From Saccharothrix obliqua (GTDB taxonomy: Bacteria; Actinomycetota; Actinomycetes; Mycobacteriales; Pseudonocardiaceae), in NCBI RefSeq assembly GCF_019375475.1, contig NZ_JAHXGQ010000001.1:1054001-1118000 (forward strand): DNA of 64,000 nt. Direction: 5' to 3'. The position numbers and the translations under genes are program-made. Position 1 is the first letter of the stretch, and every line of letters begins with the position of its first letter. Under the pieces are notes generated by a model that saw nothing but the letters and a program-made list of their open reading frames with translations, searched no databases and was not told the origin of the DNA. Below are positions 59,281-64,000 of this stretch, piece by piece.

Positions 59281-59468
59281 AGAAGGCACGCGGGATCTTC
59301 GCGCTGGCGGGCGCGGTGGGCGCGGCGACGAGCGCGTTCTCCACGCTGAAGGCGGCGCGCGGCAAGAACGACAAGCTGGCGCTGGCCAACGCCGTCGCGA
59401 GCATCCTGGTGGCGATCACCGGTGCGGCGCTGGCCGTCCGGAGCCTGCGGAAGGACGGCAAGGCATGA
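59277..59468 (+). CDS. 63-residue membrane protein within the gat operon
   Basis: A short protein with basic N-terminus [21 protein letters not shown] and a second hydrophobic segment [16 protein letters not shown], so one or two membrane helices with Lys/Arg-rich ends. ATGA overlaps on both sides lock it between gatA and gatB, so it is translated at similar levels. In mycobacteria pfkA occupies the gatA-gatB gap. No function known to me; the coupling could merely reflect operon compaction. Confidence 0.75.
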
Positions 59469-60967
59469 CGTCGGTGGACGAGCTGATGGACTACGCCGAG
59501 GTCGTCGAGCGGTTCGACCCGGTGCTGGGCCTGGAGGTGCACGTCGAGCTGCACACCGCCACCAAGATGTTCTGCGGCTGCGCCAACAGGTTCGGCGGCG
59601 AGCCCAACACGCACGTCTGCCCGACGTGCCTGGGCCTGCCGGGCGCGCTGCCGGTCGTCAACGGCAAGGCGGTGGAGTCGGCGATCCGCATCGGGCTGGC
59701 GTTGAACTGCTCCATCGCGGAGTGGTGCCGGTTCGCGCGGAAGAACTACTTCTACCCGGACATGCCGAAGAACTTCCAGACGTCCCAGTACGACGAGCCG
59801 ATCGCGTTCGACGGCTGGCTCGACGTGACGCTGGACGACGGCGAGGTGGTGCGGGTCGAGATCGAGCGCGCGCACATGGAGGAGGACACCGGCAAGTCCC
59901 TCCACGTCGGTGGCGCGACGGGCCGCATCCACGGCGCGGACCACTCGCTGCTGGACTACAACCGCGCGGGCGTGCCGCTGATCGAGATCGTCACCAAGCC
60001 GATCCCCGGCACCGGCGCGCGCGCGCCCGAGGTGGCCCGCGCCTACGTGACCGCGCTGCGCGACCTGCTCAAGGCGCTGGACGTCTCGGACGTGCGGATG
60101 GACCAGGGCTCGCTGCGTTGCGACGCCAACGTGTCGTTGATGGCCAAGGGCGCCGAGGTGTTCGGCACCCGCACCGAGACCAAGAACGTCAACTCGCTGC
60201 GCAGCGTGGAGCGCGCCGTGCGCTTCGAGATGACGCGGCAGGCGGCGGTGCTGGCCTCCGGCGGCTCGGTCGTCCAGGAGACGCGGCACTTCGACGAGTC
60301 GACCGGCGGCACGTCGTCCGGCCGCACCAAGGAGACCGCCGAGGACTACCGGTACTTCCCGGAACCCGACCTGGTGCCGATCGCCCCGTCCCGCGACTGG
60401 GTCGAGGAGCTGCGCGGCACCCTGCCGGAGCTGCCGTGGGAGCGCCGCCGGCGGGTGCAGCAGGAGTGGTCGCTGACCGACGCCGAGCTGCGGGACCTGG
60501 TGAACGCGGGCGCGGTGGACCTCGTCGCGGCCACCGTGGCGGCGGGCGCGACACCCGCCGAGGCCCGCTCGTGGTGGGTGGCCTACCTGACCAAGGAGGC
60601 CAACGCGCGTGGTGTCGAGCTGGGCGAGCTGGGCATCAGCCCGGAGCAGATCGCGCGGGTCGTGGCGCTGGTCAACGCGGGTGAGCTGACCAACAAGCTC
60701 GCGCGCGAGGTGGTGACCGGCGTGCTGGCGGGCGAGGGCGAGCCGGAAGCGGTGGTCGAGGCACGCGGCCTGAAGGTCGTGTCGGACGACTCGGCGCTGG
60801 AGCGGGCCGTGGACGAGGCGCTGGCGGCGCAGCCGGACGTGGCGGCGAAGATCCGCGACGGCAAGGTGGCGGCGGCGGGCGCGATCGTCGGCGCGGTCAT
60901 GAAGGCCACCAAGGGCCAGGCGGACGCCAAGAAGGTCCGCGACCTGGTCATCGCGCGCTGCTCCTGA
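59465..60967 (+). CDS. gatB: Asp-tRNA(Asn)/Glu-tRNA(Gln) amidotransferase subunit B
   Basis: A 500-residue Gat[22 protein letters not shown] starts the kinase-like domain (quoted in part), [13 protein letters not shown] follows (zinc-type Cys), then IEIVTKPI and [12 protein letters not shown]. The C-terminal YqeY-like tail [27 protein letters not shown] (quoted by ends) binds tRNA. It activates the mischarged tRNA for transamidation. Last gene of the gatC-gatA-63aa-gatB operon; no simple hairpin terminator follows. Confidence 0.96.
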
Positions 60968-60986: not shown

Positions 60987-61285
60987 GCGTTGCTCCGAGC
61001 AGCGTGCCGCCCGTTGCTCCGAACGTCGTGCCACGCGCGGTGCCCTGCCTCGACGGCCTGTGCTCCTGACGGCGCTCCGTCGACACGGCCGCCTCGGGCA
61101 GCGCGTTGCCCTGAACGGCGTGCCTCCGGCGCGGGCTCCCGCACCCGGCGCTTTGCTCCGGATGGCGGGCCACCGATGCGGATTGCCCGTGGGTGGCGTG
61201 TTGCTCCGAACGGTGAGCCGTCGACACGGCCACCGCGTTCGGCGCGTTGCCCCGAACGGCGCACGAGCCGGTGGTTCCGAGGCGG
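60987..61285. repeat. degenerate tandem array, ~47-bp period
   Basis: The motif GCGTTGCTCCGAACGGCG recurs with changes at 60987, 61011, 61056, 61101, 61147, 61195, 61241 and, weakly, 61271. From the second to the seventh copy the spacing is 46-48 bp. Copies 4 and 7 are also preceded by similar CCGTCGACACGGCC blocks at about 61077 and 61219. The period is not a multiple of three and no frame has a start site, so it is not coding. It follows gatB directly. Confidence 0.7.
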
Positions 61286-61581
61286 TGCGCCGCCGTCGAC
61301 CCGGTCCGCAAGTGAGCGGTCCACATGCGCATCCACCGCGGGGCGGGCTCACGGGCCCGCTCCGCGGTCGTGTGCCAGGGCTTGGAAATCCGTCGAAGTG
61401 ACCGTCCACACGGCACTCGCCGGTATCTGACGATCTCCCGCCCGGTCTTTCACCACGAAGCCGCCGCCTACCCCGTGACCGGGGGTGGCGAACAGTGACC
61501 GAGGGGGTGCCGACGGTGGTGATTCCACATGACCGGTCGTTCGGTGCACCCCCTTATTGCGGACCGAGAGTCGCCTTCTCT

Positions 61582-61613
61582 GTGTTAACACGTTCCTCCG
61601 TTCGAGTGATAAA
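61582..61613 (+). promoter_or_regulatory. candidate promoter and operator upstream of the GGPYQxH peptide gene
   Basis: TTAACA (61585-61590) and GATAAA (61608-61613) are 17 bases apart. The perfect palindrome GTGTTAACAC (61582-61591) covers the -35. The resulting 5' leader of about 195 bases contains another palindrome, GGCTTAAGCC (61717-61726). The 530-bp stretch 61286-61815 is otherwise AT-richer and gene-free. Confidence 0.4.
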
Positions 61614-61774
61614 GGCATCCTCGAAAGAGCGCTTAGCCCAGGTCAGGGCCGTCAGAAGTACGTGTTCTGGTCGCTCTCGGTGAATTAGCCCCGCAAAGAT
61701 GCGTCCATCTGTGTCAGGCTTAAGCCGTTCGGTCGGGCCGGGGGGCCACCGAATGATCAAAGATCACAGCCGGC

Positions 61775-61793
61775 ACTCCGGGATCACCGGAGT
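61775..61793. promoter_or_regulatory. inverted repeat just upstream of the peptide gene
   Basis: ACTCCGG-GATCA-CCGGAGT, perfect 7-bp arms, 9 bases before the GGGGAGGA ribosome site at 61802. It could be an operator or a hairpin limiting translation. Confidence 0.4.
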
Positions 61794-61815
61794 CCGTTGT
61801 AGGGGAGGACAACGC

Positions 61816-62124
61816 ATGTCAGCTGAAACCGATCCCAGGCTGGTCGAGGAGATCGACTCGATCGCCACCGACATCGACACCGGCGTCGAGCCGGACGCCG
61901 TGGCGCTGACCGCGGCGAGGGCGGGCGTCCAGACCGTGGGCACCGACGGCGTCACCCCGCAGGGCGGCCCGTACCAGACCCACAGCGAGCCGGCGGGCGG
62001 TGACGACCCCGACGGTGGTCCGTACCAGCCGCACGAGCCGGAGCCCGCGAAGACCGGTCCGGTCCGCCCCGCGGGCGGCCCGTACCAGACGCACAAGACG
62101 GAACCGGTCACCGCGCAGAACTGA
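61816..62124 (+). CDS. 102-residue peptide with three GGPYQxH repeats
   Basis: ATG at 61816 with GGGGAGGAC ten bases upstream. Residues 1-48 look like a leader domain: acidic helix DPRLVEEIDSIATDIDTG, then VALTAARAGVQTVGTDG. Then GGPYQTH (50-56), GGPYQPH (67-73) and GGPYQTH (87-93), each followed by a Glu-Pro containing linker. There is no signal peptide or membrane segment. The repeat-with-leader layout resembles a multi-core precursor peptide or a protease substrate; I recognise no family. A TPR-CHAT protein gene follows 67 bases later on the same strand. Confidence 0.78.
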   Translation: MSAETDPRLVEEIDSIATDIDTGVEPDAVALTAARAGVQTVGTDGVTPQGGPYQTHSEPAGGDDPDGGPYQPHEPEPAKTGPVRPAGGPYQTHKTEPVTAQN

Positions 62125-62184
62125 ACAACCGGCGGACCGCACTGCCGAACCCGGACGGGTGGCAGTGCGGTTCGCCTGCTTGTG

Positions 62185-62198
62185 CTCTCATATGAGAG
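62185..62198. promoter_or_regulatory. palindrome over the CHAT gene start codon
   Basis: CTCTCAT-ATGAGAG is a perfect 14-bp palindrome and contains the ATG (62192-62194). A repressor bound here would block both transcription and start-codon access. Regulator unknown. Confidence 0.45.
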
Positions 62199-64000
62199 TG
62201 CCTCTGGCCGCCGATCCCGTGGGGGATGCCCGTGAACTGCACCGCAAGGGCAAGGCGAACGCATCCGCGAACCGCTACCTGACCGCGACCCGCATCCTCC
62301 GCCGGGGCCTGGCGGTGCTGGAACGGGCGGACGCGGACCCGGTCGGCCGGCTGGAGGTCCGCATCCGGCTGCTGATCACGCTGTCCTTCTGCCTCGCCGA
62401 GACCAACGGCCTGGAGGACGGGTTGCGCCAGTTGGCCGCCGCACGCGCCGAACTGACCGGCCTGCCCGAGGGGCCGCTGCGTGACGAGCTGACCAGCCTC
62501 GTCAACGGCGTCCAGGGCTTCCTGCTGTTCCGCGTGGGCCGCATCGAAGAGGGCATCGTCTACGTCGACCTCGACGTCGCCCACCACGAACGCCTCCTGG
62601 AGCGCACCAAAGCCGACGGCGGCGACCCGGGCCAGGTCGTGCAGTCCCTCGTCACCACGCTCACCAACCGCGGCAACGCCTACGGCGAGATCCACCGCAT
62701 CGACGACGCCGTGCGCGACCTCAACCGCGCCGTCCACCTCGCCGCCGAGCACGACCTGCCGCTGCGTGCCGCCATCTGCACCCACGCGCTGGGCAACGTG
62801 CTGCGCCTGGCGGGCGACATCCCGCAGGCGCTGCGCCGCTACCAGGAGGCGAACCGGGCGTTCCGCGACCTCGAACCCGGCCTGCTGCTGCGCCTGAACA
62901 TCGACCAGGCCGAGGCGATGATCAGCGTCGGCCTCGCCGACGAGGCGGGCCGCCTGCTGGACGAGGTCCTGCCCGAGCTGCGCAGGCAGCGCATCGGGCA
63001 GGACGTCGCCGAAGCCGAGCTGTACCGGGGCGCCGCCGCCCTCGCCGACGGCGACCTGGTGCTGGCCCGCCGCATGGCGCGCTCCGCGCAACGCCGCCTG
63101 GTGCGGCGCGGCAGCCCCGCGTGGGCGGCCGTCGCCGGCCTCATCGAACTGCGCGTCGACAGCACCCGCGCCGTCGAGTCACGCCGCTCCTCGCCGTCCG
63201 TGCTCGCCCGCGCCCTCGAACTCGCCGCCCGGCTCAGCGCGCTCAAGCTGCACGACCAGGCCAAGCTCGCCACCGTGCTCGCCGCGCGGGTCGAGGTGCG
63301 GCACGGCAACGTCGACCGCGCCGCCGACCTCCTGCGCGGTGTCGCCAACACCCGCCGGTTCGCGCCCATCGACCACCGGATGCTGCTGCGCCTGTGCCGC
63401 GCCGAACTCGCGCTCGCCCGCGGCAACAAGCGCGTCGCGCTCGCCCAGGCCAAGGCGGGCCTCGCCGAACTCGGCCGGATGCGCGACCGCATGGGCGGCC
63501 TGGAACTCGTCTCCGGCACCGCCCTCCACGGCCGCGAACTCGGCGAACTCGCCGTCCGCCTGGTGCTGGAGGACGGCGACTCGCCCACCGTCGCCAAACG
63601 CCTGTTCACCTGGCTGGAACGCACCCGCGCCCAGCTCTACCGCTACGACCCCGTCGAGTCCACAACGGACACCGCGCTCCGCGAGAAGATCGCCGAGGTG
63701 CGGCAGCTCAGCCGCGCCCTGCTGCGCGCCCGCCTCGACGGACTGCCCACCGCCAAGCTGGAGGAACGCCTCGCCGCCAGCCAGCGCGACGCCATGCGCC
63801 TGGGCTGGAGCGAGAGCCCGTGGGGCAGGCCCCGCCCCGTCGCCACCGCCGACGAGGTGATGGCCCGCCTCGGCGACCGCGCCATGGTCAGCTTCGCCGC
63901 GTCCGGCGAAGAACTCGTCGCCGTCGTCCTGGCCGGCGGGCGGGTCCGCATGAAGCGGCTCGGCTCCGCCGACGAGGCCACCGAACGCGCCCGCCGCCTG
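62192..64000 (+). CDS. TPR protein with CHAT (caspase-like) domain, N-terminal part
   Basis: The frame is open for 603 residues and runs off the window. Residues 10-520 are helical repeats of TPR type, for example AICTHALGNVLRLAGDIPQA, RMARSAQRRLVRRGSPAWA and LLRLCRAELALARGNKRVAL. From about 560, DEVMARLGDRAMVSFAASGEELVAVVLAGGRV resembles the opening strands of a CHAT domain, so the His-Cys dyad should lie beyond the window and cannot be checked. CHAT proteins are caspase/separase-related proteases. ATG at 62192 has no good ribosome site; a GTG at 62219 is an alternative. Its upstream neighbour may be its substrate. Confidence 0.8.
   Translation, partial: MRVPLAADPVGDARELHRKGKANASANRYLTATRILRRGLAVLERADADPVGRLEVRIRLLITLSFCLAETNGLEDGLRQLAAARAELTGLPEGPLRDELTSLVNGVQGFLLFRVGRIEEGIVYVDLDVAHHERLLERTKADGGDPGQVVQSLVTTLTNRGNAYGEIHRIDDAVRDLNRAVHLAAEHDLPLRAAICTHALGNVLRLAGDIPQALRRYQEANRAFRDLEPGLLLRLNIDQAEAMISVGLADEAGRLLDEVLPELRRQRIGQDVAEAELYRGAAALADGDLVLARRMARSAQRRLVRRGSPAWAAVAGLIELRVDSTRAVESRRSSPSVLARALELAARLSALKLHDQAKLATVLAARVEVRHGNVDRAADLLRGVANTRRFAPIDHRMLLRLCRAELALARGNKRVALAQAKAGLAELGRMRDRMGGLELVSGTALHGRELGELAVRLVLEDGDSPTVAKRLFTWLERTRAQLYRYDPVESTTDTALREKIAEVRQLSRALLRARLDGLPTAKLEERLAASQRDAMRLGWSESPWGRPRPVATADEVMARLGDRAMVSFAASGEELVAVVLAGGRVRMKRLGSADEATERARRL

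Follow-up and report, generated by a model that had tools for sequence, protein, structure and literature searches.

Analysis of a 64,000-nucleotide stretch of the Saccharothrix obliqua genome (contig NZ_JAHXGQ010000001.1, positions 1,054,001 to 1,118,000, forward strand; hereafter the window) indicates that a gene for a short acidic repeat peptide (61816..62124) is very probably paired, as a dedicated partner, with the TPR-CHAT protease gene that follows it (62192..64000 in the window, running on beyond its edge). All coordinates given below for window features refer to the plus strand. The peptides form a real and apparently undescribed family of partners for a protease type that is itself known; TPR-CHAT proteases are widespread, and for few of them is a partner known. 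Our preferred reading, to which we assign a probability of roughly 0.5, is a two-part module in which the peptide would dock onto the protease through its repeated heptads and serve as its dedicated substrate, a reading adopted because of the analogy with separase and with Csx29-Csx30 as described in PMC10028731.

The peptide gene (class A, GGPYQxH, in the classification used below) starts with an ATG behind a Shine-Dalgarno-like GGAGG and encodes 102 amino acids (aa) with a net charge of -12, 14 prolines, 13 glycines and no cysteine, tryptophan or phenylalanine; we infer that the chain is disordered. A preliminary description of this stretch had reported a soluble protein of this length with three near-identical heptads, and both the open reading frame and the heptads were recovered in place: GGPYQTH (61963..61983), GGPYQPH (62014..62034) and GGPYQTH (62074..62094). 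Three 7-mers alike to within one mismatch arose in 0 of 5000 composition shuffles of the peptide, and two copies in 30 of 5000. Wobble positions vary from copy to copy (GGC/GGT, ACC/ACG), so that a recent DNA duplication is not their source. A search of the complete 8.04-Mb genome for sequence coding for GGPYQ[STAP]H gave matches only at the three heptad sites, and the reversed control pattern gave 0 matches. The first 16 residues, MSAETDPRLVEEIDSI (61816..61863), form a second conserved module (0.06 non-synonymous substitutions per site, dN, versus 0.35 synonymous ones, dS, in comparison with both genome G110 and S. algeriensis) and might fold as a short amphipathic helix. No hydrophobic signal segment was seen in the peptide, with its acidic start, when the sequence was read by eye.

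The ATG of the protease gene (62192) lies 67 nt past the peptide stop, and the window contains codons 1-603 of 871; followed in the genome, the gene ends at 64807 (L004:1693-4308). The start may instead be the GTG at 62198, and a GTG stands at a like distance after the element TGTGNTNTCATA, described below, in many of the loci printed out. Pfam CHAT (PF12770) matched residues 629-855 with E = 1.1e-30 and 107.5 bits (cut-off 24), and TPR matches fell under the Pfam cut-offs. The AlphaFold2 model of the S. algeriensis orthologue (mean predicted local distance difference test score 83.6; below 50 in the loops right after the catalytic His and Cys) shows a long N-terminal TPR-like solenoid. The Pfam CHAT match, His751 (about 64442) and Cys791 (about 64562) all lie to the right of the window edge. 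The earlier view of a large TPR protein entering a CHAT domain 67 bases downstream is therefore borne out, and the extension it had proposed as a check revealed an intact His-Cys dyad that is invariant in 81 of 81 aligned rows. In fold comparisons, the CHAT half of the model matches the separase protease domain, with separase-securin complexes among the top matches of the model, and the match to Csx29 has a large root-mean-square deviation over the whole chain. The TPR half matches peptide-binding TPR proteins, including the Rap-pheromone and NprR-NprX structures. Such shape matches of a predicted model alone reveal no function.

With the window protease as query, we found TPR-CHAT proteins in all 25 genomes of the genus set, its own included, at E below 1e-200; the loci that this set has in common with named records are from Saccharothrix and Actinosynnema. 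These genomes were scanned for GGP[YF][KQ][STPA], a cluster being two or more matches within 300 nt, and 22 of the 23 clusters, counted by hand from the listing, lie directly upstream of a TPR-CHAT gene; the exception is on contig 55 of genome G451. Three genomes without a cluster carry other words before the protease, namely GGPYSTH twice (G454), GGPYTSY twice (G457) and GPYKPH once (G458). A GPY peptide thus fills the slot in all 25 genomes (the other 24 of 24 in addition to our own), with at least two motif copies in 24 of them. From adjacency and orientation, the preliminary description had proposed a substrate-protease or peptide system, against which GGPYQ-repeat proteins standing mostly away from CHAT genes, or a CHAT domain without its catalytic residues, would have spoken. 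Neither was found, and that proposal holds as far as a real, conserved and dedicated pair is concerned, given the 25 genus genomes and the wider set of loci described next; its suggestion of peptide cores gains little support, as discussed below.

In a sample of 200 family genomes, a search with the single peptide gave 7 matches, its own included, of which 5 adjoin the protease and 2, with internal stop codons, were taken as chance. Protease relatives at E of 1e-60 or better were found in 111 of these genomes (own included), and in all 30 of the best 30 loci fetched a short motif peptide occupies the slot (L025 placed by hand). Named genomes were scanned as well, with an alignment of 15 rows as query, and the best 80 of 136 confirmed relatives were kept. 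Of these 80 Pseudonocardiaceae loci, 74 have a short peptide in the slot; the remaining loci have a subtilase (4) or a protein of about 160 aa (2). The two sets overlap, and both were picked by likeness to the window protease, so that the 80 loci are its near kin. Slot classes, assigned by hand for L053 and L107 and otherwise by regular expressions applied to heuristically called genes, comprise 15 class A (GGP[YF]), 5 class B (GPVHHQ, GPVSHQ, GPVHHE, GPVHHT, GTYPFD), 20 class C1 (CCG, nearly all from Lentzea) and 34 class C2 (a two-Cys motif).

Part of this adjacency is explained by descent, since classes A and C1 share a place behind gatB (59465..60967, named by sequence reading). This gene lies outside the pair and serves as a marker of the locus position; a homologue stands upstream in 14 of 15 class A and 20 of 20 class C1 loci. 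A stable gene order at the gat locus could in principle have kept together two genes that have no functional link. We consider this improbable: pairs of classes B and C2 have different surroundings, yet peptide and TPR-CHAT stay joined, and the class A pair of Actinokineospora fastidiosa sits behind a ClpB-type gene and is still paired.

The cluster away from TPR-CHAT in G451 (L175:3193-6339, G451:C55, minus strand) falls in the linker GGPYQPHGGSYQPGGGPYLPGGGPYQPDG of a Caspase (Peptidase_C14) and Trypsin_2 fusion. The TPR-CHAT peptide of G451 itself has a different word, GGPYKPT; the homologous fusion of G457 is without a motif match at that place, and the linker of the G446 homologue is unaligned. 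The fusion was therefore taken as a low-complexity chance match and not as a second motif protein, a shared motif being possible. Loci labelled Rhodococcus rhodnii NRRL B-16535 (L077, L121) and Nocardia sp. NRRL S-836 (L079) fall within Kibdelosporangium and Lentzea on the protease tree, a placement that points to mislabelling or mixing of the assemblies; the peptide form consequently looks confined to Pseudonocardiaceae as far as sampled.

Judging from the slot sequences, GGPYQxH is one among several lineage-specific motifs that occupy the same place, which include GGPYQTH, GGPYKPT, GGPFKTT, GPVHHQ, GGYHHD, CCGG and others. The shared position of classes A and C1 behind gatB indicates that the content of the slot was rewritten at what is apparently one orthologous locus, the whole word being GGPY in Saccharothrix and CCG in Lentzea. 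Mapped onto a tree of 83 proteases, the seven slot labels can be explained with 6 changes, the lowest number possible, compared with an average of 43.2 for shuffled labels. Relatedness alone already clusters the labels on this tree, and the stronger point is the pattern of paralogues: Saccharothrix species hold class A with one protease and C2 with the other, and Kibdelosporangium holds B and C2. A single motif for all classes, GP[VYFIT], was rejected as unsupported; it matched 14 of 14 distinct class A peptides (true by class definition) and 4 of 5 class B peptides (shuffled mean 1.5, maximum 4), but only 6 of 20 C1 (mean 3.5, maximum 8) and 7 of 34 C2 peptides (mean 4.3, maximum 12). Some C1 and C2 peptides (e.g. 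L064, L111, L117) have a His-rich stretch before the Cys motif (HEHDHEHD..CCGG, HHHHTDENGELSPLCVGGGC), like metal-binding peptides.

Within one peptide the copies are kept alike. Among 23 distinct class A peptides, 21 of them with at least two copies, the three variable positions are 96% identical within and 45% identical between peptides, and 0 of 5000 permutations reached the observed value. Codon comparisons between copies inside one peptide gave 409 identical, 170 synonymous and 9 non-synonymous pairs. In comparison with G110 and S. algeriensis, respectively, the window repeats have dN of 0 and 0.02 and dS of 0.15 and 0.73 (21 codons only), the remainder of the peptide has dN of 0.40 and 0.58, and the protease has dN of 0.08. 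These substitution rates indicate that the repeats are under strong purifying selection, and the dN pattern divides the peptide into two conserved modules, the N-terminus and the repeats, within fast-changing linkers.

According to our preferred reading, a TPR-CHAT protease composed of an alpha-solenoid and a caspase/separase-like domain would act together with a dedicated, disordered and multivalent partner peptide. The near-identical heptads would be short linear docking motifs for the TPR solenoid; by analogy, docking through the heptad is somewhat more likely than not, with the TPRs as the presumed site. Flexible Glu/Pro linkers would present the chain to the CHAT active site, and once the protease is switched on the peptide would be cut, to which step we give slightly less than an even chance. 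The linkers are the likelier place for the cut, since the heptad varies widely compared with the much more invariant CHAT core and is thus a poor candidate for the cleaved bond. Separase recognizes its substrates by docking motifs as well as cleavage motifs.

The gene pair, its intact dyad, the conserved pairing, the co-inheritance of motif and protease, and repeats that are under purifying selection and alike within a peptide were all computed directly. Several observations, however, weigh against docking and cleavage as the explanation. The variable motif residues diverge widely (QTH, KPT, KTT, STH, TSY and KPL in class A; VHHQ, VQQD and others in class B), and the CHAT half, with 61 of 84 invariant alignment columns, is the more invariant part of the protease, which makes it less likely that the active site reads the heptad itself. 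The TPR part holds 24 of 37 class-specific columns, no greater a share than its length would give (540 of 871 residues); these columns, 4 showing at least three residues and 33 showing two, were therefore discarded as a locator of the recognition site. TPR solenoids match many peptide binders through shape alone, and an inhibitor would leave the same conservation as a substrate.

The main rival reading takes the peptide for a securin-like inhibitor or chaperone. As an acidic and disordered chain, it would hold the TPR-CHAT protein off through repeated pseudo-substrate motifs, and its removal would free the activity. This reading fits the sequence data almost as well as the docked substrate: the peptide is small and acidic with two conserved modules, the CHAT half of the model resembles separase, and separase-securin is among the top fold matches. 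We regard it as somewhat unlikely. Against it stand a motif copy number that ranges from 1 to 6 and the class C peptides, which have a Cys motif, once per peptide, in place of the GGPY word.

The short repeated motifs and the TPR shape matches to the Rap-pheromone and NprR-NprX structures also recall signalling of the RRNPP type, in which a small-peptide gene stands beside the gene of a TPR receptor. The peptide would then be exported, trimmed to the heptad and re-imported, and would bind the TPR groove and so control CHAT. The window pair shares with Rap/NprR a TPR solenoid beside a small-peptide gene and differs in its protease output domain, its tandem motif copies and the lack of a secretion signal in our reading of the peptide sequence. 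Recurrent neighbours, defined as clusters present in 4 or more of the 80 loci within 4 kb on each side, include an ABC-transporter ATPase near 10 C2 and 2 subtilase-type loci, with none clustered near class A loci, and we consider such signalling quite improbable. Still more doubtful is a precursor of a ribosomally synthesized and post-translationally modified peptide (RiPP) with several cores, for which TPR-CHAT would be the leader or core protease. A conserved N-terminus followed by repeated C-terminal units suits a RiPP, as does the Peptidase_M14 carboxypeptidase-like gene that follows in 9 of 15 class A loci; this gene, however, is absent beside the window pair, and no known RiPP-modifying enzyme occurred among those recurrent-neighbour representatives that were run against Pfam. 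The notion of the repeats as peptide cores is thereby left with little support.

Our literature searches, which did not cover bioRxiv preprints and most subscription papers, returned no GGPYQ, GGPYKP or GPVHHQ and no 'CHAT domain' together with 'Pseudonocardiaceae', and wider searches gave nothing on the pairing; the accessible part of PMC7159879 does not mention CHAT. As a TPR-CHAT protease with a neighbour-encoded partner, the window protein resembles Csx29 of Craspase (type III-E CRISPR; substrate Csx30, CASP-sigma), and its relatives have a sigma factor in the same locus. Csx30 is cut within one loop, and deletion of M427 prevents cleavage, according to PMC10028731. The window protease scores far below the cut-off of the NCBIfam model NF041237 for Csx29 (25.3 bits versus 300), its partner is a 102-aa repeat peptide and not a sigma-factor inhibitor like Csx30, and no sigma gene adjoins the pair. 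With separase-securin-SCC1 the system shares, in fold, a solenoid plus CHAT-like protease; it differs in being bacterial and smaller, with a small repeat partner and without an established membership by sequence.

Homologous TPR-CHAT proteins apparently occur in the ECF54 loci of Actinobacteria, where PMC8999054 places a sigma factor with subtilase, carboxypeptidase and CHAT proteins and states that control by proteolysis has been proposed. The window genome has two further TPR-CHAT genes with a subtilase, a Sigma70_r2 sigma factor and a protein of about 150 aa (L153:977-6144; L154:3406-8424, in which the protease gene is divergent on the opposite strand), and their gene content points to ECF54. 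The window locus differs in having a short repeat peptide in the slot; gatB precedes the pair, a GSDH-type gene on the opposite strand follows it, and neither sigma factor, subtilase nor the protein of about 150 aa adjoins it. Among 15 further family loci of distant paralogues, the protein of about 150 aa precedes the protease in 12 (by reading) and a short motif peptide in 0. At class level, the protease had matches in 57 of 246 genomes, own included, and of the 29 loci fetched, 8 have, by reading, the protein of about 150 aa, 5 a subtilase immediately upstream, 1 only a sigma factor and 15 nothing clear, with a motif peptide in the slot of 0 of 29. A gene clustering with Sigma70_r2 lies upstream of the peptide in four C2 loci.

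The subtilase-type and about-160-aa-type rows fall outside a 75-row peptide clade in the protease tree (Shimodaira-Hasegawa-like approximate likelihood ratio support 100; the root was not inferred by the method), and most simply, the peptide form arose once, by replacement. The window locus would thus descend from an ECF54-like locus in which the peptide replaced the sigma factor and its neighbour of about 150 aa. A mobile-element or plasmid origin was rejected, the plasmid collection giving one match only, at 38% identity in an 11.85-Mb Nonomuraea record. Pro-rich short open reading frames lie 5' of the sigma factor in both about-160-aa-type loci (L102:2228-2407, L105:2134-2373) and are possibly an older relative of the peptides. 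Taken further, and only tentatively, the data allow a bacterial counterpart of the separase logic in which the code can be rewritten. Throughout the family, the partner peptide of the TPR-CHAT protease would carry a lineage-specific docking word that is alike within a peptide and changes with the protease; the system would have begun as a locus for sigma-factor proteolysis that gave up its sigma factor and acquired the peptide. Dozens of natural protease-peptide pairs, with a short motif rewritten many times, would make caspase/separase-like recognition, specificity and activation directly testable in bacteria; they are a possible source of orthogonal protease-tag pairs and suggest a way in which a locus for sigma-factor proteolysis can be remodelled to serve a new partner.

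Around class A loci, the genes that recur are gat genes and those for a Peptidase_M14 protein and a GSDH-type protein (10 of 15); the neighbours of C1, C2 and B are different and include glyoxalase-like, aldo/keto reductase, ABC ATPase and short-chain dehydrogenase genes. The Peptidase_M14-cluster gene follows TPR-CHAT on the same strand in 19 of 20 C1 loci as well, L043:6673-9159 being one example among the 28 class A and C1 loci, and is not present in the window genome.

The DNA around the pair carries three further features. A putative promoter or regulator site, GCGTCCATCTGTGTCAGGCTT (61701..61721), stands about 112 nt upstream of the peptide gene; in the 15 class A loci examined its 16-base core lies 110-120 nt ahead of the start and deviates at 0-2 positions, compared with 3-5 in the other loci listed, and with up to 3 mismatches allowed the 21-mer has a single match in the window genome. 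Rfam gave nothing at E 0.1 for 61000-62400, and a promoter and terminator scan of 61500-62400 found no canonical terminator and no sigma-70 promoter. Between the genes, the 67-nt intergenic stretch folds (-43.1 kcal/mol) into a strong hairpin with a 16-bp outer stem (62131..62176), which has no T-run and is therefore not a canonical intrinsic terminator. Its z of -5.8 was obtained against mononucleotide shuffles, a mild control, and z is below -2 in 66 of 73 folded loci (14/15 A, 4/5 B, 19/20 C1, 29/33 C2). A second putative promoter or regulator site, TGTGNTNTCATA (62181..62192), lies right before the protease start and occurs at no more than 1 mismatch in 52 of 73 loci versus 2 of 730 shuffles, the consensus having been taken from some of the same, related loci. 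These elements suggest that peptide and protease genes are separately controlled; with a conserved upstream element for each gene and the hairpin between them, the peptide could be made in excess, which is a point in favour of the securin-like inhibitor.
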